Virus record (IMG/VR): IMGVR_UViG_3300037189_002469
Location: 1-27,310 of that record
Length of the DNA stretch: 27,310 bases
Origin: a virus
Reading direction: 5' to 3' (one strand)
Below are positions 1,499-22,430 of this stretch, piece by piece; position 1 is the first letter of the stretch; each line of letters opens with the position of its first letter. The translations under genes were made by a program, and so were the position numbers. Under the pieces are notes generated by a model. It saw only the letters and a program-made list of their open reading frames with translations, did no database searches and was not told the origin of the DNA.

Positions 1499-1502
1499 AT
1501 CT

Positions 1503-1510
1503 TATATTGC
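1503..1510 (-). promoter_or_regulatory. GCAATATA pre-start motif (tail fibre gene)
   Basis: GCAATATA on the minus strand is followed by AGAT and then the ATG at 1498. The same octamer at the same 4-nt spacing precedes three other structural genes. It may be the -10 element of a late promoter giving a nearly leaderless mRNA. Confidence 0.45.
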
Positions 1511-1528
1511 CATTTATTATCCAAGTGT

Positions 1529-2680
1529 TTAGAACGCAAAGTATGAATCATCGGTATAGTATTCTTTGCGGATATAAGTCCCGGCATATCGGACCGCATC
1601 CATGGCATCATCGAAGAGCTTCACCGGCTCATCGGTAATGAAGTCACCAACTTTCTTCCACTTATAATTCTCGTATTCCTTTTTGATTTTCGCATCATCC
1701 TCACAAAAGACACCAAACGTTTTGATGTTGTCGATTCCTTTCTTGACAACCTTGTTTGCATTTTGCACATCGTATCCGGCGTTGTTCATTTCGGCAATGA
1801 TCTCCGGCCTGGCATAATCCGCCACGATGGTGATATGTTTCTCAATCCCGAGTTGATCCATCCTTTCAATGAGGTTGGTTGTGGTGAGGTAGCTCTCATA
1901 TATCACCGGCTCAATATATATATCATCCTCGCACCAATACACTCGCATGAGTGCGGTCGGATGATTGTACCCGAAGTCACATCCATATACATAGTTGACG
2001 AACCGAGCCGGGCGATGCTTGACAAAGGTCCAATTGGAATATATGTTTGACTTGCTGATTGCCTTCTCCCCGAGTGCGTAGATTTGATACAATGCTTCAT
2101 CCGTTCTCTTGAGGTCCTCGATTTGTCTACGGATGGAATCCGGAAGGAATGGATTGTCACGATACGTTGACTTGATGAGGATGCTCTCCTCTTTCGGTAG
2201 ATCATACAACCATGATGTTGATTCACTTGGATTGTAGTCAAAGATCAACTTCCATTCGGTCCTCATGTTGAGTTGAGTGAAGTCATCATAAAAGAGCTCA
2301 TTGGCTTCATTACACCATGCGAGATCCCTCTTGCGACCTCGAATCTTTTGCTCATCATCCACCGAGAAAAATTCAACGATGCTCCCATTCGGGAAGGTGT
2401 ATATGTGTTCACTCTTATTGTGAGCATTGACATCATACAAATCCATTTCCTTCATGATCTCAAGGAAGTCCCTCATCACCGTTGCTCTCAATGCCGGGAA
2501 AGTTTTTCGGATAATACTCGTTACCTTCCCTCTATTTTGCAATGAGTAGACAATGATCATTTGACAAAGGGAATAAGTCTTTGATGACCTTGATCCTCCC
2601 TCATTAATTATAAACCGTATATCCTTATCCTGGAGAGCTGAATAATTTTTCTCAAAGATTACGGTGCTATTTATCTCCAT
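1529..2680 (-). CDS. terL: Terminase large subunit (packaging ATPase-nuclease)
   Basis: This is the motor that translocates phage DNA into proheads and cuts it. The N-terminal ATPase has a Walker A motif, GGSRSSKT, at residues 28-35. A Walker B-like LAWCNEAN at 120-127 carries the catalytic Glu, and a coupling motif DYNPS lies near 149-153. The C-terminal RNase H-like nuclease shows the expected acidic residues: CDFGYNHPT (D235), VADYARPE (D288) and FDDAMDAVRYA (D357-D361). The length of 383 aa is slightly short but typical for the PBSX/Terminase_3 type in Bacteroidota phages. It overlaps the 3' end of the small-subunit gene by 14 nt, so the two are probably translationally coupled. Confidence 0.95.
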   Translation of the reverse strand: MEINSTVIFEKNYSALQDKDIRFIINEGGSRSSKTYSLCQMIIVYSLQNRGKVTSIIRKTFPALRATVMRDFLEIMKEMDLYDVNAHNKSEHIYTFPNGSIVEFFSVDDEQKIRGRKRDLAWCNEANELFYDDFTQLNMRTEWKLIFDYNPSESTSWLYDLPKEESILIKSTYRDNPFLPDSIRRQIEDLKRTDEALYQIYALGEKAISKSNIYSNWTFVKHRPARFVNYVYGCDFGYNHPTALMRVYWCEDDIYIEPVIYESYLTTTNLIERMDQLGIEKHITIVADYARPEIIAEMNNAGYDVQNANKVVKKGIDNIKTFGVFCEDDAKIKKEYENYKWKKVGDFITDEPVKLFDDAMDAVRYAGTYIRKEYYTDDSYFAF

Positions 2681-3095
2681 CCGGTTTGATGATGTTCACC
2701 TTGATTTCGTTGATGTCCTTTCCGTTGGTTGTGATATCCGCCTTCTCGGTTAGGCCATTCAAACGTTGAGTGATGGATGCGTTGTATTGTCCAACCATCC
2801 CTCCCATGATTTGATCATTGCGGATTTCATCGCTTATGCGTGAACAGATTGTAGAGAATGCCGAATAATTCCCCCCACTATTCGCAAAGTAATCATTGAC
2901 AACCAATCCATGATCATGACAAAACACTCTAAATCCACTCAATGTCAATGGGACCTCCAATGGAATCGGTACCGCCTCTCCGGTTTTGTTACTCAATGAG
3001 TATTGATACCGAGGATTCTCCTTAACGTGCTTTCGATACTTCTCGAATAGCTCATATAAATCCTCCGGTGTTTCAAAGTTGCGTGGTCTTCCCAT
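2667..3095 (-). CDS. terS: Terminase small subunit
   Basis: The 142-aa protein begins MGRPRNFETPEDLYELFEKY and lies directly upstream of terL, overlapping it by 14 nt, the usual place for the DNA-recognition subunit. The N-terminal helical part, an LSGFRVFCHDHGL segment near residues 72-84 and a polar C-terminal tail match the small terminases (gp3-like) of Bacteroidota phages as I remember them. The expected role is to bind the packaging site on concatemeric DNA and regulate TerL. The start is chosen at the first Met, which leaves a 1-nt gap after the upstream HAD gene. The assignment rests on both family resemblance and position. Confidence 0.8.
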   Translation of the reverse strand: MGRPRNFETPEDLYELFEKYRKHVKENPRYQYSLSNKTGEAVPIPLEVPLTLSGFRVFCHDHGLVVNDYFANSGGNYSAFSTICSRISDEIRNDQIMGGMVGQYNASITQRLNGLTEKADITTNGKDINEIKVNIIKPDGDK

Positions 3096-3096
3096 A

Positions 3097-3564
3097 TTAT
3101 TTATTTATCCACAACTCCCCATGTACACCAATTTGCTTGATGACATCCGGATTGTTGTCATAGTGTTTATTAATCTTCAATTTCTGAATTATCTCAATCT
3201 TGCTCTTATTGCTCCCCGTTGCATATACTCTCGATGCCGGTATCCCAAGATCCTTTGCGGTTTGAAGCATTGGCCCTTTGTCATTCCTTGCCGAAATGAT
3301 ATATACTTCCGCTCCCTTTGCTATCCATCTTCTCGCAATCTCTTTTGCTTGAGTGAGTGTTTCATCGTAATCGAATGAGATGCGTTTTGGATCCGCAAAT
3401 GACTTCCGATATTTCTCAATGACACTCATCTTTGACTCCTCCCATTTAGATTCGCACACCGCATATCGTTGAGCTTCATCCGGAAAACTACTTTGACTCT
3501 CCGGATCCTTCATGCACCTTTGTAGGTACTCGTTTTTTTGTTCGTCTTGCTTTGGGTTTGGCAT
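3097..3564 (-). CDS. HAD-superfamily phosphatase fused to a phage Cys motif
   Basis: The reading frame is open to 3678, but I place the start at 3564 (MPNPKQ), because from there the protein begins with a recognisable phage N-terminal motif. That motif is P-x-P..E..YLQRCM..FPDEAQRYAVC-x-S-x-W (residues 2-41, Cys17 and Cys37), which I associate with prohead protease or other head proteins. Residues 60-145 carry a complete HAD set: FDYDETL with D65 and D67, Ser91 in YIISAR, a Lys at 120-122 and YDNNPD (D136, D140). A phosphatase or phosphotransferase with unknown substrate is inferred. The 77-nt overlap with the upstream gene is unusually long. If the start is wrong, Met18 (3513) is the next choice. 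Confidence 0.65.
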   Translation of the reverse strand: MPNPKQDEQKNEYLQRCMKDPESQSSFPDEAQRYAVCESKWEESKMSVIEKYRKSFADPKRISFDYDETLTQAKEIARRWIAKGAEVYIISARNDKGPMLQTAKDLGIPASRVYATGSNKSKIEIIQKLKINKHYDNNPDVIKQIGVHGELWINK

Positions 3565-3790
3565 CTTGTATTGTTTTTTCCTCCTCTTGATCAATGCCAT
3601 CGTATTGAATGCATTTCTCCGGTGCGGATGTTGTTTCGTTTTCCTCTTCAAAGATATATCCGAGTCCAATGGACACATAATATTGATACCTCTTTATATC
3701 TATATTGTCAATAACAACGGTTATGTTCCCGAGTGATGTCTTTTTGATAATTGTTTTTCCGATGTATTCAGTTTTGATCTTGATTTTCAT
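3488..3790 (-). CDS. Small phage protein of unknown function, basic C-terminus
   Basis: The 100-aa protein has a beta-rich first half (MKIKIKTEYIGKTI, then VSIGLGYIFEEE). A charged low-complexity second half follows, with KPKARRTKKR near residues 78-87. I do not recognise a family beyond small proteins next to terminase genes in Bacteroidota phages. It overlaps the sigma-like gene by 23 nt upstream and the HAD gene by 77 nt downstream, so it belongs to a tightly packed unit leading into terS and terL. The ordered part probably ends near residue 50. Confidence 0.6.
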   Translation of the reverse strand: MKIKIKTEYIGKTIIKKTSLGNITVVIDNIDIKRYQYYVSIGLGYIFEEENETTSAPEKCIQYDGIDQEEEKTIQDAKPKARRTKKRVPTKVHEGSGESK

Positions 3791-4307
3791 GGTGTATTCG
3801 TTTTAAATTACGTTTAATTTCAGCGATTAAATAGTGAGCGGATGTATTTGTGATATTGAAATACTTAGCCATTGATCGTGCGGTGTTGTATCCCTTGACA
3901 ATGTATGCATCCAATACGGTGATCTTGACATTGTCGGTGAGAGAATCTCGGTATATATCCACGCATGACTTCCATTGATGATATTTTTGCTCAATTTCAA
4001 TCTTTCGATTGATATCATGATTATCCTCCGGACCATCCGGTATTGTCAACTCACTTGAGATCAACCTCTCTTGCTTATTAGTATCGAGGTTTTGCCAAAG
4101 TATTTGCTTTTTAATTGAATTGAGGAGATAGCTCTTGACCTTATTCTCATCGATTGTATTCTCTTCAATTGTTAAGCAATGGAGATATGCATTGTTGATC
4201 ACCAAGTCGATTGACAATCTCGGATTGTATTTCGCACAAAAGTACCTGGTGTATCGAAACACCTCCTCATAATGAGTTGATATGTACCGATCAAGAATTC
4301 GCTTCAT
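3768..4307 (-). CDS. Sigma-70-like or HTH transcription regulator
   Basis: The 179-aa protein has the outline of a small sigma factor. An N-terminal helical, aromatic-rich part (YEEVFRYTRYFCAKYNPRL) has the feel of region 2. A linker and then a C-terminal helix-turn-helix at about residues 141-170 (NTARSMAKYFNITNTSAHYL) are like region 4. Its place just upstream of the terminase genes is where late-gene activators often sit. I infer that it directs transcription of structural genes, perhaps through the GCAATATA motif found in front of four of them; nothing here proves that link. It overlaps the upstream gene by 17 nt. Confidence 0.55.
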   Translation of the reverse strand: MKRILDRYISTHYEEVFRYTRYFCAKYNPRLSIDLVINNAYLHCLTIEENTIDENKVKSYLLNSIKKQILWQNLDTNKQERLISSELTIPDGPEDNHDINRKIEIEQKYHQWKSCVDIYRDSLTDNVKITVLDAYIVKGYNTARSMAKYFNITNTSAHYLIAEIKRNLKRIHHENQDQN

Positions 4308-4503
4308 ACCAATTTATGAAATCTTTGTACCATATCCTCCTCCTAATTGATGAGCAAAAGCATTCCCGGTCAATTGTACCGGTTACTCTTTCTTTTATTT
4401 TCTTGAGAGGAATCAATATCTTTTTTGTGCATATATCATCACCAACCATTTGAATGATTGACTCGATGTATTGAGCATCCTCTTTTGTTATTCCTCGATC
4501 CAT
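4291..4503 (-). CDS. Small phage protein, unknown
   Basis: The reading frame extends upstream to 4599, but that part lies wholly inside the membrane-protein gene. The Met at 4503 (MDRGITKEDAQYIESII) gives a 16-nt overlap and a normal soluble 70-aa protein. It ends with several aromatic and Arg residues (RRRIWYKDFINWYEANS). Two Cys sit close together (CFC). No family is recognised. It is coupled to the sigma-like gene downstream by a 17-nt overlap. Confidence 0.55.
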   Translation of the reverse strand: MDRGITKEDAQYIESIIQMVGDDICTKKILIPLKKIKERVTGTIDRECFCSSIRRRIWYKDFINWYEANS

Positions 4504-4733
4504 TGACTTAATATATAGGCAACCATTGATACAATCGCTGCCGTTACTATATTGCCGGAAATAAGCAAAGTGGTCCAAAATGAGGTACATTTCCAACATC
4601 CGAATGATGCATGAATGTATTCAAGGAATTTTGATTGAGGCAATACATTGATGAATATGTAATCAACTACCCAATGCAATGGCTCAAATTTAGCAATCAA
4701 CCAACCGATTGCGAGTCCGCTTAGATATATCAT
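4488..4733 (-). CDS. Small membrane protein with C-W-K-C-T-S-F-W motif
   Basis: The 81-aa protein has an N-terminal hydrophobic helix (about residues 2-14), a central FGCWKCTSFW motif (residues 44-53) and a strong C-terminal membrane segment (TLLISGNIVTAAIVSMVAYI). The paired Cys with an aromatic run between two membrane helices resembles the DUF1360-type layout, but the family match is only a guess. It starts in an ATGA overlap with the upstream gene. It probably sits in the inner membrane; its function is unknown. Confidence 0.6.
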   Translation of the reverse strand: MIYLSGLAIGWLIAKFEPLHWVVDYIFINVLPQSKFLEYIHASFGCWKCTSFWTTLLISGNIVTAAIVSMVAYILSQWIEE

Positions 4734-4927
4734 ATCTCTTGTTTTAGTTTCTCAATATAAAGTGTGGCATCCATCAATTCCTCCTGGAGATGATTCAACC
4801 ATTCCATCAAAGGTAAGGAATTATTTTCCAATGTGGTGCCATATTTTTTGATACCTACCTCGGACCGGTCAAAATACTTCATTGCCACCTTGGTCACGAT
4901 GATATCCTCGGGTGTTTTCTTTTCCAT
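4730..4927 (-). CDS. Short helical protein, MazG-like signature
   Basis: The 65-aa protein carries KKYGTTLENNSLPLMEWLNH followed by LQEELMDATLYIEKL. This pattern recurs in short phage proteins and resembles one half of the all-alpha NTP pyrophosphohydrolase (MazG/dUTPase-like) fold, in which E-E-x-x-D residues bind Mg. It is too short for a complete enzyme unless it oligomerises. It is coupled by ATGA to the membrane-protein gene downstream and follows the previous gene with a 1-nt gap. The function is a weak inference. Confidence 0.55.
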   Translation of the reverse strand: MEKKTPEDIIVTKVAMKYFDRSEVGIKKYGTTLENNSLPLMEWLNHLQEELMDATLYIEKLKQEI

Positions 4928-4928
4928 A

Positions 4929-5123
4929 TTAATTCATTTGACATTGTACATCCATAAAAACCGCACGATCAACCTCCTCGATATACACCTCATCATCTTC
5001 CATGGTCAATACGATGGCATAGTTGACTCGCATTCCTTCAAAGACATCTTGAAATCGAGTGATGATCATGTGCGGATTCTCGTTTTTTGTGCCAACATAG
5101 GCAATGAAATACCTATTTCGCAT
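4929..5123 (-). CDS. Small phage protein, unknown
   Basis: I start this gene at 5123 (MRNRYFIAYVGTKN), not at the upstream Met at 5156, because 5123 gives an 11-nt ATG...TAG overlap, an arrangement seen four times in this window. The 64-aa product is probably an alpha/beta domain: an N-terminal strand, a FQDVFEGMRVNYAIVL segment and an acidic EDDEVYIEEVD stretch. It resembles small Bacteroidota phage proteins, but I cannot name a function. Confidence 0.55.
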   Translation of the reverse strand: MRNRYFIAYVGTKNENPHMIITRFQDVFEGMRVNYAIVLTMEDDEVYIEEVDRAVFMDVQCQMN

Positions 5124-5322
5124 AATACTTAAAAAATTTGATGTAGAATTCCTCATTCACCGATGATCCCTTGAGGAATCTCCACAATTGAAGGTATGTG
5201 ATTCCCATATCTTCCGCAATATGGGATAGTTTGTATCTCTTGGATACTCGTGACCTCACCTCTTTCTCGATGAAGTCACGAATTGTATCCGAATCAGAAA
5301 GGTGAATCGTCAAAGCTCTCAT
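5113..5322 (-). CDS. Small helix-turn-helix DNA-binding protein
   Basis: The 69-aa protein has a probable Cro/CI-like helix-turn-helix at residues 32-52 (LSHIAEDMGITYLQLWRFLK). Basic residues just upstream (RSRVSKRYK) fit DNA binding. It may act as a small transcriptional regulator inside the replication block. It overlaps the DUF3127 gene by 29 nt; a later non-ATG start is possible. No dimerisation domain is visible apart from the short aromatic C-terminus. Confidence 0.55.
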   Translation of the reverse strand: MRALTIHLSDSDTIRDFIEKEVRSRVSKRYKLSHIAEDMGITYLQLWRFLKGSSVNEEFYIKFFKYYAK

Positions 5323-5596
5323 CGACCATTGGTGTTGATTTCACATCCCATACATCCAAAGTATTGTAATACCTCCCATTGTACTCACGACCTCTCAAAT
5401 TGAATTTGACGGTGATGTCAATCCCTGGTTTATAATTATCCAAGAATGCACATCGCACTTGAGACAATTGAAATGCCACATCTTGAGGATACTCTCCATT
5501 GGGGATTGTTAAAACGAATTCTCTCACCGAGAATTTATCACTTACTTGTTTTGTTGGCTCAATCACTTTGATTTTGCCGGTTACTGATAATTCCAT
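5294..5596 (-). CDS. DUF3127 protein with SSB-like acidic tip
   Basis: The protein (100 aa) matches the DUF3127 family as I know it: MEL-x-x-TGKIKVIEPTKQVSDKF, REFVLTIPNGEYPQDVAFQL, and ITVKFNLRGREYNGRYYNTL. This is an OB-fold-like beta domain typical of Bacteroidota and their phages. The C-terminus, DESFDDSPF, closely resembles the acidic DDIPF tip with which bacterial SSB recruits partner proteins. I infer that it coats single-stranded DNA and recruits replication or recombination proteins. It lies downstream of the ERF and exonuclease genes in the same transcription direction, which supports that role. Confidence 0.75.
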   Translation of the reverse strand: MELSVTGKIKVIEPTKQVSDKFSVREFVLTIPNGEYPQDVAFQLSQVRCAFLDNYKPGIDITVKFNLRGREYNGRYYNTLDVWDVKSTPMVDESFDDSPF

Positions 5597-5606
5597 TGTA
5601 TTTGAT

Positions 5607-5711
5607 TTAAAATGTTCCTTTGAATATTTGCGATGTGATCGCCGTACCTACCAAAAATATCATTGCCATGATGAGAATCAATGTGATGATTGCGAGGATT
5701 TTGTTTTTCAT
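5607..5711 (-). CDS. 34-aa single-pass membrane peptide
   Basis: A short open frame begins MKNKILAIITLILIMAMIFL and ends QIFKGTF. It is almost entirely one hydrophobic helix preceded by two Lys. Its ATG overlaps the TGA of the upstream gene (ATGA), the coupling used throughout this region, which makes it likely to be real. The function is unknown; it could be an inner-membrane modulator. Confidence 0.55.
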   Translation of the reverse strand: MKNKILAIITLILIMAMIFLVGTAITSQIFKGTF

Positions 5712-6019
5712 CTTATCTTGATTAATCCCCACAAAATTGATATCGATCTCCTTTGTTGATTTCGATGCTCAATTGATGGCTTGGTTTTCACTTTGTTTGT
5801 TTTCTTATTGCCAATGTACATCCATGACCTTCCACATTCAAATGACCAATCCGGATGATTTGAAAGTGTTGATTTCAATGATCCGTTGTTATTTGCCGGA
5901 TGATTTTGCAATCCAATGATTTGAGATATTTCCCTCGTGGAATATATCCGGCTCTTGAATTTGCGTTCATTTAATTTGTCATTGATTAATTCTTGATTTG
6001 TTTTCATTTTACTTTTCAT
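5708..6019 (-). CDS. Basic small phage protein, unknown
   Basis: The 103-aa product is Lys/Arg/Asn-rich. A possible DNA-binding segment lies near residues 27-60 (STREISQIIGLQNHPANNNG) with a following DWSFECGRSWMYIG. The C-terminus is basic. The first Met (6019) overlaps the exonuclease stop by 11 nt, matching other joins here; Met5 (6007) is the alternative. The N-terminal TREISQIIGL suggests a winged-helix or HTH, but I would not assign a function. Confidence 0.5.
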   Translation of the reverse strand: MKSKMKTNQELINDKLNERKFKSRIYSTREISQIIGLQNHPANNNGSLKSTLSNHPDWSFECGRSWMYIGNKKTNKVKTKPSIEHRNQQRRSISILWGLIKIR

Positions 6020-6626
6020 TTAGTAGTGAATAATACTCGTTATATATTTCGGTTGACTTTTTCAATCTCTCGATGATTTGATTCTCAACCTCCTCATCTC
6101 TTTCAAAATACAATGCGGTGATTCTCTTCTCCGGATCAATATGGTCAACTCGATGGATTGAAAGATTCTCCCATTCATTGAGGAGCTCATTCGATGTTGT
6201 TACCATGCAATGGATCACCTCGCTCGATGGTTTATCATACAACATCATATATGCTCTCATTTGCCACTCATAATGAGAATTGTATGCATCCTCAATAAAT
6301 GCCGGGAATGTATCCAATGACCATGATGTTTTGACATCGATGATTGAATTCTCGGTGATGATATCGCATTCACCGGTCAACCATTCATTTTCAACTCGAA
6401 TCTCATTCTTGATGTAGTTGGTGAATCTCACCGAGTTGAGTAGGTCAATCGAATCTTGCTCTTGCTCTTTCCCTTTGATTATTTGCTTTGTGTTGAGCTC
6501 GGTTTTGTATCCGTAGAAATTCTCCTTTGCTACCTTTTTGATATATGATATTGCGGTTGCACCGATATCATTCTTTCCCCGACCATTGGTCATGAGGTTA
6601 CCGATTTGAGATGGATGCCACTTCAT
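6009..6626 (-). CDS. YqaJ-like/PD-(D/E)XK exonuclease
   Basis: With the start at 6626 (MKWHPSQIGNLMTNGRG), which makes a perfect ATGA overlap with the ERF gene, the protein has 205 aa. Catalytic residues of the lambda-exonuclease/YqaJ fold are visible: Glu in GKEQEQDS (residues 52-58), GECD (D88), IIDVK (D97, K99) and WQMRAY (Q122, Y126). Such enzymes resect double-stranded ends and hand single strands to an annealing protein. The neighbouring ERF gene makes a Red-like recombination pair, and the DUF3127 protein nearby may coat the strands. A longer frame reaches 6665, but the extra 13 residues lie in the ERF gene. Confidence 0.8.
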   Translation of the reverse strand: MKWHPSQIGNLMTNGRGKNDIGATAISYIKKVAKENFYGYKTELNTKQIIKGKEQEQDSIDLLNSVRFTNYIKNEIRVENEWLTGECDIITENSIIDVKTSWSLDTFPAFIEDAYNSHYEWQMRAYMMLYDKPSSEVIHCMVTTSNELLNEWENLSIHRVDHIDPEKRITALYFERDEEVENQIIERLKKSTEIYNEYYSLLNEK

Positions 6627-7141
6627 ACTTCCAATGCTTTGATTTGTAACTCGGTTAATGTCCATTTCTCAATCAATTGCTCTTTGGTATACTTACCGGC
6701 TTGAATTGATGCGATTGCTTGCTCAAATCTTTTATTATCCAATCCCGGCTTGCTTGGTGTCGATGCCGATGCCGTATTGCCATCATCATCCACCGCTTGG
6801 AGTGACAAAAGTGATTGCAATGTGCCTCTTCGGAAATATGTAACCGCACTCAATACCTTTTGCGGATCCGTAATCATTGGCAATGTCATGAATGATTCAA
6901 CCATCTCTCCCGAATCGATGTCAATGATGCGAGTCACTACATCGGTACCGATCACCGGTTGCAATAAAATTAAACCATTCTCTAAAAGAATTGGCTCAAC
7001 CGCACTCAATAGAGCATTGATATCGGCATATGAGTTCTTGAAATGTGGATTCGTTGCGTTTTTCGCTACCTTTCCGATTTGCTGCTTAGCAAGGTGCAAC
7101 TTTTGATACAATGTTGCGATTGTTTTTGTGTTCTTTTCCAT
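6623..7141 (-). CDS. erf: ERF-family single-strand annealing protein
   Basis: The 172-aa protein has the hallmarks of the ERF family: KNATNPHFKNSYADINALL (residues 28-46), then VEPILLENGLILLQP, then TYFRRGTLQSLLSLQAVDDD (residues 101-120) followed by GNTAS. These proteins anneal complementary single strands during recombination-dependent replication. A flexible Ser/Pro linker and a C-terminal helical domain (from about residue 135) follow. A 35-bp gap upstream and a CA-rich leader (AACACACACAAAAATG) suggest a separate strong translation start. TATCTTTA nearby is one base off the Bacteroidota -7 box. Confidence 0.85.
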   Translation of the reverse strand: MEKNTKTIATLYQKLHLAKQQIGKVAKNATNPHFKNSYADINALLSAVEPILLENGLILLQPVIGTDVVTRIIDIDSGEMVESFMTLPMITDPQKVLSAVTYFRRGTLQSLLSLQAVDDDGNTASASTPSKPGLDNKRFEQAIASIQAGKYTKEQLIEKWTLTELQIKALEV

Positions 7142-7176
7142 TTTTGTGTGTGTTAAATTTCGTTAAAGATAATAAA

Positions 7177-7853: not shown

Positions 7854-8059
7854 ATCTTTTTTTCTTTTGTTATATACCACCACATTGGCTCAATTACTTT
7901 ACCGATATAGTCATCATCTTTTTCATCTACTCCGGACCAAACTACTCGTGTGACCTGGTATGTTTTTACACCGCCAAAAGTATTCAATTGAGTTACCTTT
8001 CCTTCAAAGTAGCAATCACCATCTTCGACATCTTGTATTGTATCTCCAATTTGTATCAT
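7850..8059 (-). CDS. Small beta-rich protein, unknown
   Basis: The 69-aa protein starts MIQIGDTIQDVEDGDCYFEG and continues VTQLNTFGGVKTYQVTRVV, ending in MWWYITKEKKI. The alternation of polar and hydrophobic residues suggests a small beta-barrel (SH3- or Tudor-like). It has ATGA overlaps with both the primase gene and the following gene, so it is part of the same mRNA. No function is recognised. Confidence 0.6.
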   Translation of the reverse strand: MIQIGDTIQDVEDGDCYFEGKVTQLNTFGGVKTYQVTRVVWSGVDEKDDDYIGKVIEPMWWYITKEKKI

Positions 8060-10458
8060 ATCTTTTTTGCTTTTTCGTTTAACTCATCCCATACATCATC
8101 CGAGTCTTTCACCGGAGGAGCTCCGGGAATGCTCAACTCAAAGTATCTCCCATTGTGATTCCTTCCCTTGGTCATGGTGTATCCTTTATAATTTGCGTAT
8201 TCGGATACCCACTTGAGGAATCTTCTCGATTCAAGATCCTTCCATCCATTGAATTCGGATGTGAATTGTTGCATCACTCCACTATTGTAATGGTATACAT
8301 TGAGTGCAAGGTTGCCCTCTTCGGTCCAATCATAAAAGTCTTTCGATGTGGATTGAATAAATCGCTTCGCATCCGCATTGATTGAGATTGATTTTGTCAA
8401 TCCATTTGCAAGGAATAATTGAAGATTCTTGATCATGTAGTTGTCGAATCGAATCCAATCATCATCATTCCATGAATCAAATAACAATCGGCCGTACTCA
8501 TCGAGCGGTGATCTCCTCGAATGGAAGTATTGAAAGAATTCAAGCTCATGCCTCCTCCGATCATGTGAGCTCCCGGCACCGCTTATCACATAATTGGTTG
8601 TGATTACAATCTTCGGTGATCGGTCAAATGGGATGAATATCTCATCCTTATTTTTTCGGTTGACCGTTATTCCTTCCGAGATGATTGAGAACAATTGTTC
8701 AAAATCAAAGTTGCGTTTGACATCATCAAATGCCAGGATTTGAGAATCGAGATTCACGCGTTGATATACGAAATCACTTTTCCCAGGATTGAATGCTTTT
8801 CCATCAATCTTGACTACTCTCCGGAAATATCCAAGAGCTGCCAACATCAATGACTTTCCACTTCCTCCATTTGGATTGTCATCGATTTCCTGGTCATTGA
8901 ATATGATTGCCTTTTGATCCGTTTTATCCTTGAATGAATGGATGAGGTATCCGAGTGTTGACTCAAGGGAAAGAATTCTCTCCTCATCATCCGCTGATAC
9001 CTTTGATACGAAATCTTGAAAGTCATTGGTTGATTCCTTGATGAATGTGAAATCTCGTGGGATGATTTGATTTTCCCAAATGTATCCATCCACATCGATG
9101 TAACTCATGACCTTTACATCCTTGGATGATACTTTGACCACTCCATTCTTGAATGGGATATATGATGTATCTTTTGTGTCCTGGAGCATATGGATATCAA
9201 TCGAGTCAATCATGTTGAGGTGATTCTCATTGAAGAGATACGGTGATCGTGAACAGTAATTCCACACCGCAACCTCATTTTTGTCGAGGAGATAGTTGAG
9301 AACATAGTCTTTGATTTGTTCCGTTGAGCTCAATCGGACCTTGTTTTCTTTCACTCGGACAAAAGTAGGCCTTTCCGCATTTTCCGGATAGTATTTGTTG
9401 AATCCACTTTTCACCAAGAATTCGGAGTATTTTATTGGCTCGATTTGAATTCCTTTTTTCGAGTCAACCATCCAAAAAACATCATCACCGGATGCAATCT
9501 CCTCTTTGATATCATCAATGATGTCATCAGCAACTCCCAATTGTTTCTTGATATCATCCTTTGCGATACCGCTCTTGAGTTTTTGCTTTACTTTATGAAA
9601 TGTATCCTTATCTTCAAAGTATTTAGTGGAGAAATTTGCTTTTTTATATGCCGAATTGATGGATGTCAACATCTCACCATGTTCGAATCCGCTCCCTTGA
9701 CAATACTTGGTCCAAATATATTGCTCGGTTGTTCCTTTGTCGATGCCATATTCACACATCACACACGCCAATTTGAACACAAAATGATTTCGGCTCCCCT
9801 CCTCGAATTGACATCCATGGTCAAAGCGTTCAATCAATGAGATTATTTTATCCTCATCATTCAATACGCAAATGGGAGTACGTTCCGTATATTGATATCC
9901 CTCATCGGTTTCAATTCCTTCCCATTCCTGGCAAAACTCATTGAAATATATCTTTGGATCATACGATTCAAAACAAACTCGAGATACATTTGAATTCTTT
10001 ACATCAAAATAATCGGATTGGAAGTATTTCCCAAATGCGGTGAATCTCCTTTTGTGCTCGAGCTTATCCGATTTCGGTATTCTTATCACCGCCTTGAGTC
10101 CATTTCCTCCAGGAGATGTGAATACCATCATCACATGAGGATCATCAATCAATCGAGCTCTCTCCTCTTCCATTTTCTTTCTCGATGGATATTGATCAAA
10201 GTCCAATACGCACAATCCGGAGTGCTCAATGAGTGAATTGTCATTGCGTTCCGAAAAGATACCATTGAACATAATTGCATTGAGTGATGCTTTCAACCGG
10301 TCATGCTCCGGATCACTCTTATCAAGGGAACGAATTTTGTTAATTTTGTTAATCAATTCAAGACTTCCAACTTTTATGCGTTGGTAAATTTCATGAATTG
10401 TGAGCTCATATGGCGTGTCCTTTGAGCTGAAAAGATTCTTAAATACTGATACTTTCAT
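8056..10458 (-). CDS. Primase-helicase (BT4734/VirE-N primase + SF3 helicase)
   Basis: The 800-aa replication protein has three parts. Residues 1-175 match the BT4734-like/VirE N-terminal AEP primase: LNAIMFNGIFSE, LCVLDFDQY with the catalytic DFD at 86-88, and SPGGNGLKAVIRIP. Residues 220-280 look like a primase C-terminal helical domain. Residues 430-660 are a D5/SF3-type helicase: YIPFKNGVVKV, Walker A NGGSGKS (530-536), Walker B ILAFDDV (574-580), sensor IVITTNY (617-623) and an Arg-rich HDRRRHELEF near 632-641. Priming and unwinding at the phage fork are expected. The gene follows a gap with direct and inverted repeats and a -7 box, and has a CA-rich leader. Confidence 0.9.
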   Translation of the reverse strand: MKVSVFKNLFSSKDTPYELTIHEIYQRIKVGSLELINKINKIRSLDKSDPEHDRLKASLNAIMFNGIFSERNDNSLIEHSGLCVLDFDQYPSRKKMEEERARLIDDPHVMMVFTSPGGNGLKAVIRIPKSDKLEHKRRFTAFGKYFQSDYFDVKNSNVSRVCFESYDPKIYFNEFCQEWEGIETDEGYQYTERTPICVLNDEDKIISLIERFDHGCQFEEGSRNHFVFKLACVMCEYGIDKGTTEQYIWTKYCQGSGFEHGEMLTSINSAYKKANFSTKYFEDKDTFHKVKQKLKSGIAKDDIKKQLGVADDIIDDIKEEIASGDDVFWMVDSKKGIQIEPIKYSEFLVKSGFNKYYPENAERPTFVRVKENKVRLSSTEQIKDYVLNYLLDKNEVAVWNYCSRSPYLFNENHLNMIDSIDIHMLQDTKDTSYIPFKNGVVKVSSKDVKVMSYIDVDGYIWENQIIPRDFTFIKESTNDFQDFVSKVSADDEERILSLESTLGYLIHSFKDKTDQKAIIFNDQEIDDNPNGGSGKSLMLAALGYFRRVVKIDGKAFNPGKSDFVYQRVNLDSQILAFDDVKRNFDFEQLFSIISEGITVNRKNKDEIFIPFDRSPKIVITTNYVISGAGSSHDRRRHELEFFQYFHSRRSPLDEYGRLLFDSWNDDDWIRFDNYMIKNLQLFLANGLTKSISINADAKRFIQSTSKDFYDWTEEGNLALNVYHYNSGVMQQFTSEFNGWKDLESRRFLKWVSEYANYKGYTMTKGRNHNGRYFELSIPGAPPVKDSDDVWDELNEKAKKI

Positions 10459-10481
10459 TGTGTTTGTGTGTTTATTTGTGA

Positions 10482-10489
10482 CAAATATA
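10482..10489 (-). promoter_or_regulatory. Candidate promoter -7 box for primase gene
   Basis: TATATTTG on the minus strand fits the Bacteroidota -7 consensus TAnnTTTG and lies 23 nt upstream of the primase ATG. No clear TTTG -33 box is present at the usual distance; the nearest TTGACA is closer. The predicted mRNA start is near 10474. Confidence 0.4.
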
Positions 10490-13420: not shown

Positions 13421-13421
13421 C

Positions 13422-13451: not shown

Positions 13452-13487
13452 CCTAAACACACGCTAATGATTGAAAAGTCCTCTAAA

Positions 13488-14769: not shown

Positions 14770-14772
14770 CTA

Positions 14773-15423: not shown

Positions 15424-15428
15424 GGTGA

Positions 15429-17739: not shown

Positions 17740-17742
17740 GTA

Positions 17743-18084
17743 TTAATCGTATATTGATGAAGTCGATGCACCGCTCACAACCATTCTACCCTCCTCAATC
17801 ACGATACCGGTTGTATCATCGATTTCAGTTGGTGGAGTTGTGCTCTCATACACCGAGTATGAGTATTGTCCTTTCATTAGTGTAACGTCAACCGGCTCAT
17901 CCAAATAAAAAAGGTTGAATCTTTCCGGATATGGTGACTCATCGGTTGTTGTGAATAAAATTGGATCGGATGTTGGATTCATTTCGTTTTGAAATACGAA
18001 TAAATAGTAAGGTGATGACAATGAACTCACTTCATTTAATGTCAACACGATTGAATTTACCTCCCCTTTGTTAATATATATCAT
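17743..18084 (-). CDS. Small structural candidate upstream of portal
   Basis: The 113-aa protein is beta-rich (YINKGEVNSIVLTLNEVSSL, then SPYYLFVFQNEMNPTSDPIL) and ends in IVIEEGRMVVSGASTSSIYD. The pattern resembles small decoration or tail-associated proteins of Bacteroidota phages, but I cannot place the family. It is the first gene after a terminator and carries the GCAATATA motif 4 nt before its ATG, so it probably leads the portal-to-lysis transcript. Confidence 0.6.
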   Translation of the reverse strand: MIYINKGEVNSIVLTLNEVSSLSSPYYLFVFQNEMNPTSDPILFTTTDESPYPERFNLFYLDEPVDVTLMKGQYSYSVYESTTPPTEIDDTTGIVIEEGRMVVSGASTSSIYD

Positions 18085-18088
18085 TACT

Positions 18089-18096
18089 TATATTGC
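18089..18096 (-). promoter_or_regulatory. GCAATATA pre-start motif (portal operon)
   Basis: GCAATATA is followed by AGTA and the ATG at 18084. It lies 27 nt below a terminator stem, where a new transcript would be expected to begin. Confidence 0.5.
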
Positions 18097-18122
18097 ATTT
18101 GCATCTTTAAATGTTCACAAAT

Positions 18123-18149
18123 AAAAAAAGCCACCCGGATGGGATGGCT
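18123..18149 (-). terminator. Rho-independent terminator after the tail-tube gene
   Basis: On the minus strand AGCCATCCC, loop ATCC, GGGTGGCT form a stem with one bulged T, followed by seven T residues. It starts about 20 nt downstream of the major tail gene stop. Confidence 0.8.
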
Positions 18150-18170
18150 CTCTTATAAGGATTTTATATA

Positions 18171-18695
18171 TTATAATGCCGGAACAACCGCGGATACCGC
18201 TGCCTCTTCGATTTCATAACATAAATAATCATTTTCACTCATTAAGGAAATGGAATATTTCGAACCATCAGCACGAGTTGTTCCGGATCCTTCGGTTACC
18301 GTATTCAATTGTAAATATGGGAAATACCAATATTTTCCATTCATGTCTTTTACAATTGCATTCAAGTATTGTTGACCAGCTCCCAAGATTTTGATTGCTT
18401 GAGATTTGTCTTGATCTCTTCGGTGGAATAGCAAGGTGATTGTCGCGGTCACATAGGATGATCCATTTACTAAATCAATTGCTGCCTCTTCGGTGTAACT
18501 TCCGGTATTTCTACGGATCTCAAATGGAGTGTAGTCCGGTGCTAATGCTGCCAAAGTGATTGCATCAATTGTCCATGTATTTGTTGCATCCAAAGTGAAT
18601 GATGCGATATTATCTTGCTGATTAATCCACACTTTTTCAATCCCGCCACTATTGTTGTCGCAAGATTTGACGATTGTTTCTAATGCTTCGCACAT
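18171..18695 (-). CDS. Major tail (tube) protein
   Basis: The 174-aa protein lies directly downstream of the major capsid gene and is a plausible tail-tube monomer. It has IASFTLDATNTWTIDAITLA, RRNTGSYTEEAAIDLVNGSS and a C-terminal beta strand SKYSISLMSENDYLCYEIEE. Conserved features such as FHRRDQDKSQAIKILGAGQQ and IVKDMNGKYWYFPY are typical of the tail proteins of Bacteroidota siphoviruses as I recall them. Its codon use and its own terminator suggest high expression. The start follows an A-rich context (CAACAAAAATG) rather than the GCAATATA motif. Confidence 0.75.
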   Translation of the reverse strand: MCEALETIVKSCDNNSGGIEKVWINQQDNIASFTLDATNTWTIDAITLAALAPDYTPFEIRRNTGSYTEEAAIDLVNGSSYVTATITLLFHRRDQDKSQAIKILGAGQQYLNAIVKDMNGKYWYFPYLQLNTVTEGSGTTRADGSKYSISLMSENDYLCYEIEEAAVSAVVPAL

Positions 18696-18716
18696 TTTTG
18701 TTGAATTTTATCAGTT

Positions 18717-18746
18717 AAAAAATAGAGGGGAGTTTTTCATCCCCTC
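18717..18746 (-). terminator. Hairpin after the major capsid gene
   Basis: GAGGGGA and TCCCCTC form a perfect 7-bp stem with an 8-nt loop on the minus strand, followed by TATTTTTT. It lies between the capsid stop and the tail-tube start, so it may terminate some transcripts or protect the 3' end of the capsid mRNA. Confidence 0.65.
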
Positions 18747-18762
18747 AAGAATATTAAATCTA

Positions 18763-19695
18763 TTAATCGAAACAAACGTTATATGCAACAATTTGCTCTG
18801 GATTAACAAGGTAGAAACCGATTTTCATGTTTGCACGAGTACGGATTAATGGCTCAGCAACTGTATCGGATAAGTTAACCGCTTTCAATGCTTTGTCATC
18901 ACCTTCAGCATCGAATGCATAAATTAACGAATCCTTAAGTGCCAACACCATTGTGTTATTTGACATACCTTCACAAACAACAACTTGAATTCCTAAGAAT
19001 GTCAACGCCAATGGAGTTGTCACATAGGTCATTGTGTTACCTTGAGCAGCCGCAAGCTCGTATGCATTTGCTACATTAGTAGAAACATATAAACGAAGAT
19101 CAGCTTTTTTGCGTACAATTGCAGCTGGAGCAGCGTTCACCATTGTTGAAAGGCGATCGATTACATTTGATGTTGTGATTGCACCATTGTATTGTCCGAT
19201 GATACCTGGAGTGCTACAAAGTTTTTTCTCGTAACCATCACACAAAGCTAAAGTTTCGTTTAATGATTCCGTATCACCTTGCCATCTGATCAACTCGATA
19301 TCTTGAGCAATTACTTTCGCCATTTCTCCCCAGTAGAAGTCCATGAATGAAGCAACTGAGAAATCACCGTTTGATCCTTTTGTCATTTGTAATGATACGA
19401 ATGACTGCTCCAAATCAAATTGACAGATCTGGGCGAGGGCCGATACGGCACATACATCGATTTCAACCGCTGATAATTCATCCGTATCAGCTGAGAATGA
19501 GCAACTTGATGCTTTCAAAATGTTACCAAACACTGTGGTAGCAAGTTTCGTTTTTGATTTCACTCCCGGTACAGTACGGAAATTGTTCGTGATATCCTCT
19601 GAAGAGATGTATGCACGAGAATAGAATGCTTCCGGATTCGCAGCCAATAACGCTGATGGATCCACATCCAAGTCGAATTTTAATTTTCTTGACAT
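18763..19695 (-). CDS. Major capsid protein
   Basis: The 310-aa protein is the expected HK97-fold shell subunit. An N-arm-like start (MSRKLKFDLDVDPSALLAAN) is followed by ALAQICQFDLEQSFVSLQ, a central helix-rich P-domain-like part (FSVASFMDFYWGEMAKVIAQ) and a C-terminal strand region ending KIGFYLVNPEQIVAYNVC. It has the expected neighbours: prohead protease/scaffold upstream and tail tube downstream. The A-rich leader (AAAAAACAAAAATG) and flanking hairpin point to heavy expression. Assignment rests on position, length and general resemblance to Bacteroidota phage capsids. Confidence 0.8.
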   Translation of the reverse strand: MSRKLKFDLDVDPSALLAANPEAFYSRAYISSEDITNNFRTVPGVKSKTKLATTVFGNILKASSCSFSADTDELSAVEIDVCAVSALAQICQFDLEQSFVSLQMTKGSNGDFSVASFMDFYWGEMAKVIAQDIELIRWQGDTESLNETLALCDGYEKKLCSTPGIIGQYNGAITTSNVIDRLSTMVNAAPAAIVRKKADLRLYVSTNVANAYELAAAQGNTMTYVTTPLALTFLGIQVVVCEGMSNNTMVLALKDSLIYAFDAEGDDKALKAVNLSDTVAEPLIRTRANMKIGFYLVNPEQIVAYNVCFD

Positions 19696-19706
19696 TTTTG
19701 TTTTTT

Positions 19707-20690
19707 TTATTGATTACTAAATTGTTTGAATTTTGCAAATTTTTCACTCAAAGAAAGTGCGGTCATTTGCGTTTGACCTTCCTCAGTTTTTTGCTCCTCA
19801 GCAAACATCTCCTCCATTTGATTGCGAAGATCAGCGATCATCGAAATGATTGCTTTCTCTCTTTCCTCAATAATTGGAAGGACAATTGCTGCAATTGCTT
19901 CAGCATCCATTGTTGGATCAATAGCCATTTCCTCCTCGGTAGTGGTTGACTCTTCAGTTGTGGTATCTTCCTCAACCGTTGTATCTTCCATCTTTACCTC
20001 ATCGGTTGACATCTCTTCCTCAACAACTTCCTCTTTGGGCTCTTTTTCCACCTCTTTAATCTCAACAACTTCTCCGTCTTTTACAACATAGATTTTGTCC
20101 TCGATTAGGTGCTCTCCATCGGGTAACTTCATTTTATATTTGTTTAATTGTTCCGATAATTTCAATCCAAGGAATCCCTCGATTGAGAATCCAACTTGAT
20201 CATTGGCAACCAATTCGGCATAATATTCCGGATCGGTTACTTGAGCGGTCACCATCAACGTACCTTTTGGTACCTCAATGCCAAATGTCGAATATGATTT
20301 ATCAAGTGTTGGTTGGTCCACGATCCAAGTCTCAAGGATATATGCCGGTACCGTTTTAGATGTATCATGCTCAAGGTTGAAAAGGTCACGATTGCGAAGA
20401 TCACTCATGAATTTCTCATGAATCTTTGCGATGGTTTGCTCATCAAATTGAACATAGTATTCACCTTGCTCATCATCCTTGCGATATATATCCATAGGAA
20501 TCATTGCCGGTGCGGTGATGCGATACTTAACATCATCAGCGAATATCATTCTTTGAGCTTGATTGAATGCAAGGCCACGAATCTTAATGGCCGGCTTTGA
20601 TGTGAATGCAATTTGTTCAATTCCTAAATCCTCACCATCCGAATACTCCGGATCAATAGTAATTTTGTAAATTGGCATATCTTTATTCAT
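19707..20690 (-). CDS. Prohead serine protease (XkdF/S78_2-like) fused to scaffold
   Basis: The 327-aa protein has an N-terminal protease domain with RITAPAMIPMDIYRKDDEQG, the catalytic-type His108 in FNLEHDTSKTVPAYILETWI, and Ser169 in VGFSIEGFLGL, as in the XkdF-like prohead proteases. After residue 205 comes a very acidic Glu/Thr-rich stretch (about 205-260), then a coiled-coil-like part (IIEEREKAIISMIADLRNQM) and a C-terminal tail, typical of a scaffold. Such fusions build the prohead and then cleave it. It lies just before the capsid gene and is divergent from the plus-strand pair, so it needs its own promoter; GCAATATA lies 4 nt before its ATG. Confidence 0.8.
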   Translation of the reverse strand: MNKDMPIYKITIDPEYSDGEDLGIEQIAFTSKPAIKIRGLAFNQAQRMIFADDVKYRITAPAMIPMDIYRKDDEQGEYYVQFDEQTIAKIHEKFMSDLRNRDLFNLEHDTSKTVPAYILETWIVDQPTLDKSYSTFGIEVPKGTLMVTAQVTDPEYYAELVANDQVGFSIEGFLGLKLSEQLNKYKMKLPDGEHLIEDKIYVVKDGEVVEIKEVEKEPKEEVVEEEMSTDEVKMEDTTVEEDTTTEESTTTEEEMAIDPTMDAEAIAAIVLPIIEEREKAIISMIADLRNQMEEMFAEEQKTEEGQTQMTALSLSEKFAKFKQFSNQ

Positions 20691-20694
20691 ACAC

Positions 20695-20702
20695 TATATT
20701 GC
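20695..20702 (-). promoter_or_regulatory. GCAATATA pre-start motif (protease-capsid operon)
   Basis: GCAATATA is followed by GTGT and the ATG at 20690. The upstream neighbour is on the other strand, so a promoter must lie in this 42-bp gap. A TTTG on the minus strand (20721-20724) lies 18 nt upstream of the octamer. Confidence 0.5.
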
Positions 20703-20710
20703 ATTATTTG

Positions 20711-20718
20711 TATATTTG
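20711..20718 (+). promoter_or_regulatory. Candidate -7 box for the plus-strand pair
   Basis: TATATTTG matches TAnnTTTG and lies 14 nt upstream of the ATG at 20733. No good TTTG is found at the -33 distance. It overlaps the divergent minus-strand promoter region. Confidence 0.4.
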
Positions 20719-20732
20719 TTCAAAAAAAAGAT

Positions 20733-21281
20733 ATGATCACTATTTTTGAAAAGGAAATTCCCAACAAAATGGAGGAATTGACCATCGAACAATTCGAGAA
20801 AATCAGTCAAATTCTAAACGATAAGGAGCTTGACAACATCGAGAAGTATATGAACGTATTCAAATTCCTTGGAATCGAGGAGAAGATGTGGGATGATTAT
20901 CCATTCTCACAATTCATTGAGTTGGTGAAAGAATTCAATTTGAATTCATACACTCCGGGAGAGGCACAACTTGAGATTGAATTAGATGGATATCAATACA
21001 AGGCCGAATTGAGATTATCGGTAAAAGAAACAAAGCTCATTGAGAAGATCATCAACCATAAGCCATATAATTACATTAGTGATATCCTTGCGGTGATGTT
21101 CAAACGTGTTGACCTTTCAAACGTTGAGCACTTTGATGATGCACATTTAAAGCACAAAGCAAAACTTTTCCGCACTCAAAAGGCGGAATTTTGTGTACCA
21201 TTTATTGTATTCGTAACCGAGAAAATATCAGAGTATGCAAAAGCCAACTCTCCCGAAGGGATGGAATCAAGTATCTCTTGA
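20733..21281 (+). CDS. Tail-assembly chaperone-like protein 1 (paralogue A)
   Basis: The 182-aa protein begins MITIFEKEIPNKMEELTIEQ and has FEKISQILNDKELDNIEKYM, then FLGIEEKMWDDYPFSQFIEL. The N-terminal 75 residues resemble the start of the next protein (P-x-x-x-x-x-LTIEQF-x-x-I), suggesting duplication. It lies between head genes and the tape measure gene, where tail-assembly chaperones (G/GT type) are found, and overlaps its partner by 47 nt in another frame. I see no direct chaperone motif, so position and overlap carry the assignment. It is one of two genes on the plus strand in an otherwise minus-strand window. Confidence 0.5.
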   Translation: MITIFEKEIPNKMEELTIEQFEKISQILNDKELDNIEKYMNVFKFLGIEEKMWDDYPFSQFIELVKEFNLNSYTPGEAQLEIELDGYQYKAELRLSVKETKLIEKIINHKPYNYISDILAVMFKRVDLSNVEHFDDAHLKHKAKLFRTQKAEFCVPFIVFVTEKISEYAKANSPEGMESSIS

Positions 21282-21999
21282 GCAATTCATTGAATTAAGG
21301 AAATTAAAAGGTGAGGATGGAGCATTCAATCATAAGATTGATATCATGTGCATCCTCACCGATACATATGCGGATGATTGGGATGATGTTGAAATACTTG
21401 AATTGAATGAATGGCTCAAGGATTTGAAATGGTTGTACACCGAGCCATCAAAGAGAGCATCCCAAACAATTGCCAGGACCAAGATTGATGCATCAATGGA
21501 GGAGATGTATCTCAAGCCAATGAATGAGTTGACTCTTGGTGAGTTCATTGATCTTGAATACTATTTCACCAATGACTATATTGACAATCTTCCAAAGATA
21601 TGTGCGATATTGTACCAAGTACCATCCACATTCATTGATGATCAACCAATTTTCAAGGGAGTAAATATGGCAAAGGCATCACAATTGGCACATCGATTCC
21701 TTGATCAACCAATCACATCGGTATATGGTGTGCTCACCGATTACATCAAGTTCCGGGATCAATTCATCAATAAACATCACAACTTAATGAATGAGGATAT
21801 GGATGATGATCTCGAGGATATCGATGATCCGGAGGAAAGAAAAGAGGCGGAAAAGAAAAAGTCATCCAACAAATGGGGATGGGAGCAAATGATTTGGTCA
21901 ATGTGCAATGGTGATATCACCAAGTATGATGATGTAATCAATATGAAATTGGTGTTGATATTTAACTTTCTCGCAATGAGAAAAGAGCTTGACATTTAG
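21235..21999 (+). CDS. Tail-assembly chaperone-like protein 2 (paralogue B)
   Basis: The 254-aa frame begins MQKPTLPKGWNQVSLEQFIE inside the 3' end of the previous gene, shifted by +1. Early residues repeat the partner's pattern (P-K-x-W-x-x-V-S-L-E-Q-F-I-E-L). A middle part (YLKPMNELTLGEFIDLEYYF) repeats LTLGEF, perhaps a second copy. An acidic/Lys-rich stretch (MDDDLEDIDDPEERKEAEKK) and SSNKWGWEQMIWSMCNGDIT follow. It could be made by its own ATG or by ribosome frameshifting from the first gene. Its 3' end overlaps the convergent minus-strand gene by 4 nt. The role is inferred from position. Confidence 0.5.
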   Translation: MQKPTLPKGWNQVSLEQFIELRKLKGEDGAFNHKIDIMCILTDTYADDWDDVEILELNEWLKDLKWLYTEPSKRASQTIARTKIDASMEEMYLKPMNELTLGEFIDLEYYFTNDYIDNLPKICAILYQVPSTFIDDQPIFKGVNMAKASQLAHRFLDQPITSVYGVLTDYIKFRDQFINKHHNLMNEDMDDDLEDIDDPEERKEAEKKKSSNKWGWEQMIWSMCNGDITKYDDVINMKLVLIFNFLAMRKELDI

Positions 22000-22418
22000 T
22001 AATCAAGTGCATAATTGAAATCCCCAAATAACGGTTGAAAGTCGTATATCACTTTTGGTTTTTTACGCAATAAATTTCCGAGCTCGAGGATTGGGAATTT
22101 TTGTGCGAGATCTTGCACATACATTCCATACATTTCCGCGATCAATCCATTTTGCTCAAGTGCATCATTGAATTTTCGAACCAAATGGAATGGTGCAATT
22201 GTACCGGTACCATTATTCAAGAATCCAAAATAATATGCAGCAAGAATCTCAATGCGAAGATTTCCCTCGGTAGTTACTTTGGCATTGATACGCACCGAAT
22301 CATACAATGTACCGGTATCCACGAGTGCCTCATCCTTGATCACCTTTTTCAAGGTATTCGCTACCCTTCTACGGAGTGCGTACTTATAATTAAACTCACC
22401 GGTGTTTTTATATGCCAT
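21996..22418 (-). CDS. Tail completion-like protein (HK97 gp10-like)
   Basis: The 140-aa protein has EALVDTGTLYDSVRINAKV (about residues 30-48), the D-T-G-x-L-x-x-S pattern of HK97 gp10-like tail proteins, then EILAAYYFGFLNNGTG and a helix. Such proteins sit at the head-tail joint or help end the tail. It is separated from the gene upstream by 14 nt holding the GCAATATA motif. It converges with the plus-strand pair. Family assignment is moderate. Confidence 0.6.
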   Translation of the reverse strand: MAYKNTGEFNYKYALRRRVANTLKKVIKDEALVDTGTLYDSVRINAKVTTEGNLRIEILAAYYFGFLNNGTGTIAPFHLVRKFNDALEQNGLIAEMYGMYVQDLAQKFPILELGNLLRKKPKVIYDFQPLFGDFNYALDY

Positions 22419-22422
22419 TACT

Positions 22423-22430
22423 TATATTGC
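22423..22430 (-). promoter_or_regulatory. GCAATATA pre-start motif (gp10-like gene)
   Basis: GCAATATA is followed by AGTA and the ATG at 22418. It almost fills the short gap after the stop of the gene upstream. Confidence 0.45.

Follow-up and report, generated by a model that had tools for sequence, protein, structure and literature searches.

A two-box element abutting four virion-gene starts, a candidate late promoter of an environmental phage group, and its predicted sigma-like reader

A short sequence that recurs at one exact distance before several virion genes of a single phage raises the question of which process it serves and what reads it. Such a sequence is the octamer GCAATATA in IMG/VR virus record IMGVR_UViG_3300037189_002469, of which a stretch of 27,310 nucleotides (nt) was analyzed and is referred to here as the window. 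The octamer stands on the minus strand exactly 4 nt before the ATG of four genes (Table 1), at every position listed by an original prediction made from the letters of the window, and the intervening bases read AGAT before 1498, AGTA before 18084 and 22418, and GTGT before 20690. There are eight copies in the window against 1.14 expected from dinucleotide shuffles, none of 100 shuffles reaching eight, and when the 43 upstream regions were simulated in 2000 first-order Markov (Markov-1) replicas, no octamer fell four times at one fixed offset (the maximum was three, in 20 replicas). An AACA lies 15 nt (14 nt for 20690) upstream of all four start-site octamers; the remaining copies (4548, 9717, 15616, and 22682), which are away from starts, have no AACA at that distance. 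AACA box and octamer together form a bipartite element, (T/A)(G/A)AACA-N14/15-GCAATATA. It had been proposed that the TATA within the octamer acts as a -10 element; the octamer as a whole fits a -10 box, but TATA alone does not describe the putative promoter, which has AACA as a second box. A weight-matrix scan of the window, with a training set that contained the window's own four sites, scored these at 23-31 bits and the next independent site at 16.6 bits.

The four elements, named after the ATG that they precede, differ in their surroundings. The stop codon (TAA) of terL falls within the upstream box of P1498, and the AACA box of P22418 lies within the coding sequence of the upstream gene, the gene at 22418 itself being neck/tail-completion-like. 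P18084 is intergenic and heads a unit consisting of a gene for 113 amino acids (aa) and then portal, while the gene at 20690 encodes 327 aa and is followed by that of a 310-aa virion structural protein (capsid-like).

Table 1. Positions of the elements, the proposed reader, and accompanying features in the window (a range written high to low runs along the minus strand).
Feature	Position	Strand	Description
Late promoter P1498 (putative)	1503..1531	-	TAAACA 1531-1526, N15, GCAATATA 1510-1503, 4 nt, ATG 1498; tail/fibre-like gene
Late promoter P18084 (putative)	18089..18117	-	TGAACA 18117-18112, N15, GCAATATA 18096-18089, 4 nt, ATG 18084
Late promoter P20690 (putative)	20695..20722	-	TGAACA 20722-20717, N14, GCAATATA 20702-20695, 4 nt, ATG 20690
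Late promoter P22418 (putative)	22423..22451	-	AAAACA 22451-22446, N15, GCAATATA 22430-22423, 4 nt, ATG 22418
Sigma-like protein, proposed late-promoter reader	3768..4307	-	179 aa; AlphaFold/Foldseek and covariation with promoter class
Possible fifth, weaker internal site	3701..3731	-	CGGGAACA-N15-ACAATATA, in coding sequence before terminase genes
Terminator-like hairpin and T run	18124..18154	-	Directly upstream of P18084
Host-type TATATTTG (TAnnTTTG) box	20711..20718	+	Serves divergent gene 20733-21281; overlaps -35-like box of P20690
Host-type TATATTTG box	10482..10489	-	24-31 nt before primase-like gene (ATG 10458); candidate early promoter

Related phages carry the same element. A portal search yielded 80 related viral contigs (74-97% identity at portal), and the bipartite pattern, AACA-N14/15-(GCAA[TC]ATA or [TA]TAATAT), was counted in 24 viral records, made up of the window and 23 relatives. 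It occurs at 93 sites, where Markov-1 sequence would lead one to expect 3.6; at 83 of these the start of an open reading frame (ORF) is no more than 15 nt away, and the genes are almost always the same four. The earlier suggestion that relatives be searched, and chance occurrences counted, is borne out by strong enrichment at starts and rarity elsewhere, rather than equal frequency at non-start positions. Across all fetched relatives there are 162 distinct site-plus-ATG sequences, compared with six for a reversed-box control, and the histogram of their spacer lengths peaks only at 14 (30 sequences) and 15 (142), nearly all other lengths having zero to three and length 9 a single outlier of 16. 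Most near-complete relatives have the four orthologous sites, before the gene after terL, the 113-aa gene, the 327-aa gene, and the neck-like gene; the spacer is 14 at the 20690 orthologs wherever found and 15 at the other three across clades, and among the 105 P1498 loci left after site filtering it is exactly 15 without exception. That such sites recur by chance, or are remnants of shared ancestry of the neighboring sequence that have no function, could draw on the two AACA boxes of the four that overlap coding sequence or a stop codon, the conservation of which is perhaps partly coding. It is nonetheless an explanation with next to nothing left to it, already contradicted by the counts, given enrichment far above chance, the specificity of the spacer, and concerted change at four places.

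The distance from the octamer to the ATG is less rigid than the distance between the boxes. Among relatives of the promoter class of the window (class GC, as distinct from class TA), 3-6 nt separate box and ATG in 71 of 84 distinct sequences and 9-12 nt in the remaining 13; the longer gaps at P1498 read GCAATATAAAGAAAAACA(A)ATG and are of the A-rich, short-leader kind that flavobacteria favor (PMC6847099). The exact 4-nt spacing thus described all four window sites correctly but does not extend as a rule to the relatives, and is a property of the lineage of the window. A constant 4 nt before the ATG in the window, together with the fact that Bacteroidota translate without Shine-Dalgarno sites (PMC6847099), might point to a ribosome-recognition motif in the mRNA rather than a promoter. 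The box is, however, tied to its own second box, at a fixed 14-15 nt, and not to the ATG, which lies 3-12 nt away in relatives, and this argues against a translation signal; moreover, the element is found at four genes only, one copy follows a terminator-like hairpin, and the initiation signals of flavobacteria, A at -3 and -6 (PMC6847099), are missing from the four window sites. A role in translation is accordingly very improbable.

On comparative grounds, there is little doubt that the element is a promoter. A conserved element is repeated at -10 and -35 distance before late/structural genes, as in the phage systems of the 7-11 and phiEco32 type, and the proposal that these are late promoters gains from the enrichment in relatives while being refined from one box to two. 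In the window, the octamer occupies -12 to -5 relative to the A of the ATG. The primary sigma factor of Bacteroidota (sigma-ABfr, which reads TAnnTTTG) offers a likeness in this respect, as the sigma-A box of Flavobacterium johnsoniae lies at -12 to -5 with 4-5 nt to the transcription start, and that of F. psychrophilum likewise at -12 to -5 (PMC6847099; PMC9723704). By this analogy, transcription is predicted to start on the AUG or no more than about 2 nt away from it, and late mRNAs that are leaderless or nearly so are a likely consequence.

The box sequence itself is unrelated to that of sigma-ABfr, and the four late elements are without a same-strand TAnnTTTG. The original prediction had stated that TAnnTTTG is absent at the four starts, which applies to their own strand; on the opposite strand, one such box overlaps the upstream box of P20690. 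No same-strand TAnnTTTG precedes the orthologs of the 18084, 20690, and 22418 genes in any genome examined, and none precedes 1498 in the window, while five of 13 orthologs of the 1498 gene have one. These observations bear on another explanation, that a phage repressor or activator binds the element as a two-part operator, which overlaps a promoter not visible here. A conserved two-part site at late genes and a proposed reader with a helix-turn-helix-like region would suit an operator. Against this, the site is asymmetric, has -35/-10 spacing, always points the same way, and keeps to a narrow range of distances from the ATG, the stretch between site and ATG is too short to hold a further promoter, and host-type boxes are lacking at P18084, P20690, and P22418, so that an operator is improbable, if somewhat less so than a translation signal.

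If the element is a promoter, the manner in which it varies among relatives is informative as to what reads it. The downstream box is GCAATATA in the window and in G008-G010, G012, G014-G016, G019, G020, G022, and G024, GCAACATA in G007, G011, and G013, and (T/A)TAATATA in G001-G006, G018, and G021. The sites found within one genome agree in this box, the exception being G023, which mixes GCAATATA and GCAACATA. The AACA box stays constant while the downstream box changes by clade in concert across the four genes, and at the intergenic P18084 and P20690, AACA is kept though the spacer sequence diverges. The comparisons establish that the element exists with a fixed spacing, that it is confined to four orthologous starts, and that its -10 box changes in concert across clades; a concerted change at all sites of a genome is expected if the specificity of a shared reader changes.

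The proposed reader is the 179-aa protein encoded at 3768-4307. Of the 24 records, 20 have an ortholog, and the four without one are fragments. Across related phages, the promoter sequence class goes with the class of this protein. On trees of 80 non-redundant loci with both the sigma gene and P1498, a single change of promoter class (GC vs. TA) suffices for the sigma tree (branch support 100), whereas the terL tree needs two and other neighboring genes, rus apart, require two to three each. The difference between the sigma and terL trees is due to the window lineage, the terL of which is 95% identical to that of TA-class phages while its sigma gene and promoters are of the GC class. Sigma residues that do not overlap between the classes include 73-75 (N, L/V, and D/N vs. 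T, S, and I/V/Q), placed by the AlphaFold model at the end of the third helix of a sigma2-like block, and we put forward as a hypothesis that they are involved in reading the -10 box.

Structure prediction points to the same protein. The AlphaFold model (28-sequence alignment; mean predicted local distance difference test 77, predicted template modeling score, pTM, 0.40) has three helices in its N-terminal block and, beyond a disordered linker, a second block of helices at the C-terminus; helices in 2-73 are sigma2-like, the linker at about 74-95 is flexible, and helices in 96-177 are sigma4-like with a helix-turn-helix. In a Foldseek search of the PDB, sigma factors fill essentially all top places, with the extracytoplasmic function (ECF) factors SigL, SigK, AlgU, and CnrH prominent; these and the first match have probabilities of 0.87-1.00, albeit with E-values of just 0.01-0.2. 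Matches in BFVD that bear a function name are mostly sigma-70/RpoE-like (ECF), the nearest match being 63% identical and uncharacterised. A second model, of a 40%-identical homologue, again has sigma factors as nearly all of its top PDB matches, with ECF factors to the fore, among them a -35-binding domain crystallized with the anti-sigma factor RslA (TMt up to 0.57). That the protein is sigma-like was therefore upheld by structure prediction and by covariation with promoter class, but not by Pfam, PHROGs, or PDB sequence searches, and on the strength of the former two it is a good candidate, with a probability well above even, for the reader of the late promoters. In both homologues, helix pattern and Foldseek ranks are suggestive of the fold of an ECF sigma factor (sigma2 and sigma4 linked, with sigma3 absent), while the strict sequence definition does not cover it: the Pfam models Sigma70_r2 (PF04542) and Sigma70_r4 gave no match.

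The promoter might instead be read by an alternative sigma factor of the host, or by host RNA polymerase together with a phage activator, in which case the protein would be an unrelated helical DNA-binding protein or co-activator. The lack of a sequence-level sigma match leaves room for this, and AAC is common in ECF -35 boxes. Flavobacteria do have several ECF sigma factors, seven in F. psychrophilum (PMC9723704). However, the change of -10 box at all four phage promoters follows the tree of a phage protein, and models of two homologues match sigma factors, which makes a host reader unlikely, although it is the least improbable of the alternatives. A candidate that was dropped is a T7-like or mitochondrial-like RNA polymerase, suggested by ATATAAGTA, which resembles a yeast mitochondrial promoter; the one large mid-genome ORF, 8056-10458, codes for a BT4734-type primase, and a sigma factor accounts better for a second box at fixed distance.

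The preferred reading, to which we assign a probability of roughly three in four as a whole, is that the elements are -35/-10 late promoters read by a phage sigma factor and giving leaderless or near-leaderless mRNAs. The 179-aa protein would join the core RNA polymerase of the host, its C-terminal sigma4-like domain reading the AACA box and its N-terminal sigma2-like domain reading the octamer, which would serve as -10 box in the two-part late promoters of four virion-gene transcription units. Initiation would fall on the A of the start codon or no more than about 2 nt from it, and the primary sigma factor of the host would read genes with TAnnTTTG boxes (the primase-like gene and gene 20733). 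A fuller version is favored by a narrower margin over its negation: that a highly diverged two-domain sigma factor of a widespread and uncultivated phage group reads four start-abutting promoters to yield leaderless virion mRNAs, that its -10 specificity has switched together with matching promoter changes, and that occupancy of P20690 could turn the divergent gene off.

Several points weigh against this reading. The decoupling of terL from sigma is that of a single recombinant lineage, and rus, a neighboring gene, likewise needs just one class change (46 rows). A small co-factor encoded by the gene at 4291-4599, which adjoins the sigma gene, is a possible participant. The 179-aa protein falls in no sigma family of Pfam or PHROGs and has no PDB sequence match (hmmsearch), alignment to Escherichia coli RpoE and to gp47 of Salmonella phage 7-11 with hhalign was not significant, the PDB Foldseek E-values are 0.006 or worse with low TM-scores, and the orientation of the domains is uncertain (pTM about 0.4). 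As regards the mRNA start, some relatives have 9-12 nt between -10 box and ATG, so that leaderlessness does not extend to the whole group, and most flavobacterial mRNAs have a leader (5.5% are leaderless in F. psychrophilum; PMC9723704).

By working principle, the arrangement would be a phage-sigma late-promoter system, and by analogy its nearest working counterpart would be that of phage 7-11, followed by that of phiEco32. In phage 7-11, gp47 (SaPh711_gp47) reads late promoters of the form GTAAtg-16-aCTA, with transcription starting 6-9 bp from the promoter element (PMC8948821). The two systems would share a phage sigma factor of similar size, gp47 being 186 codons including the stop (NC_015938) with a region-4-like C-terminus, and bipartite late promoters repeated before late genes. 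They differ in box sequences and host phylum, there is no detectable sequence homology between gp47 and the protein described here, and the 7-11 promoters were shown experimentally whereas the present ones are deduced from sequence; the searched text of the 7-11 study reports no leaderless arrangement (PMC8948821). The gp36 factor of phiEco32 reads a middle/late promoter box, tAATGTAtA, with the start 6-8 bp downstream (PMC8948821), and would be similar in pairing a phage sigma factor with an AT-rich conserved box. Its single box lacks a -35 partner and the factor lacks region 4 (PMC8948821), whereas the element described here never lacks its second box and the proposed factor has a predicted sigma4-like domain. 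With ECF factors (SigL, SigK, AlgU, and RpoE), the present system would share the two-domain sigma2-sigma4 fold, as predicted, and has in common the AAC core of the -35 box, while the lack of a match to Pfam Sigma70_r2/r4, the box sequences, and the AT-rich -10 box set it apart. The -35 box of RpoE is GGAACTT, with its AAC core.

Phage late sigma factors with bipartite promoters are already known from phage 7-11, and the authors of that study predicted that more sigma/promoter pairs or hybrids were to come (PMC8948821); in the literature searched, no report of late promoters of Bacteroidota phages was found. New here are a putative sigma factor recognized by structure only, promoters that abut the start codon, and a concerted -10 switch. 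A joint change in the specificity of a regulator and all of its sites is hard to observe, as intermediates should fail, yet the present phages offer such a case, a small protein and four short sites having changed jointly among close relatives. As relatives have been sequenced by the hundred (384 sigma-encoding stretches came from one scan of environmental data), candidate -10 specificity residues can be listed, such as N73-L/V74 vs. T73-S74. The compact promoter and its candidate sigma factor may find use in Bacteroidota as a pair for orthogonal expression, and constitute a natural test of leaderless translation in a phylum without Shine-Dalgarno use.

Minus-strand genes run from 1498 around the record via tail genes and the tape measure to the neck gene, and P22418, P20690, and P18084 each open the next transcription units. 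The record is probably circularly permuted and incomplete, and seems about 2.4 kb short between P1498 and P22418 compared with G022 (30,518 bases). A terminator had been placed just above the 18084 start, and the terminator-like hairpin with its T run was found there; a hairpin and T tract precede the P18084 ortholog in most relatives. TAnnTTTG stands before gene 20733-21281 in 19 of 19 genomes, 14-17 nt upstream of the ATG. This divergent host-type promoter and P20690 are probably mutually exclusive and could act as a switch, in which phage holoenzyme on P20690, if it forms, could turn gene 20733-21281 off.

Gene 20733-21281 and the next, 21235-21999, both on the plus strand, overlap by 47 nt inside an otherwise minus-strand structural cluster and are conserved in relatives. 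Neither product has a Pfam or PHROGs match; by eye, that of 20733-21281 looks like a tail-assembly-chaperone-type protein.

The internal site at 3701-3731 is only tentatively a fifth promoter, coding constraint confounding its conservation. At the second base of its box, GC-class genomes have C whereas those of the TA class have T, so that the latter read ATAATATA at the place of ACAATATA, by a synonymous change.

The BT4734-type primase domain in ORF 8056-10458, a terminase about 33% identical to those of Flavobacterium phages, and the TAnnTTTG boxes suggest a host among Bacteroidota. There are no close relatives among named phages, in which portal matches are below 26% identity and the sigma-like protein has no match. 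A terL scan of genome contigs found no prophage host, and a portal scan gave as its sole match L394 (JAIXRY010000011.1; 29.6 kb, portal 72% identical), from an unclassified pond metagenome-assembled genome, which is probably a free phage contig.

In diverged relatives (sigma about 40% identical), the element with the same spacing was not found. In one of these, L387, TAATATAG precedes an ATG at about 2331 bases beyond the sigma-like gene, on its downstream side, its spacer to AACA being shorter, and this hints that TA is the older class. An additional conserved copy of GCAATATA, antisense, in L028 and L047 was set aside, as it lies in noncoding sequence and no structural gene follows it. This noncoding stretch, located after the late operon (about 14300-14450 in L028 and 14430-14560 in L047), carries repeated GTACCTTTTTGGGTAC, TTTGTCAC, and CCTTTTCGGGTA and is possibly an early control region or origin. 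Finally, G015 (L049, L051, L228, and L229), of 38,240 bases, has two diverged portal/late-promoter blocks, one near each end, possibly from assembly of two strains or partial duplication.

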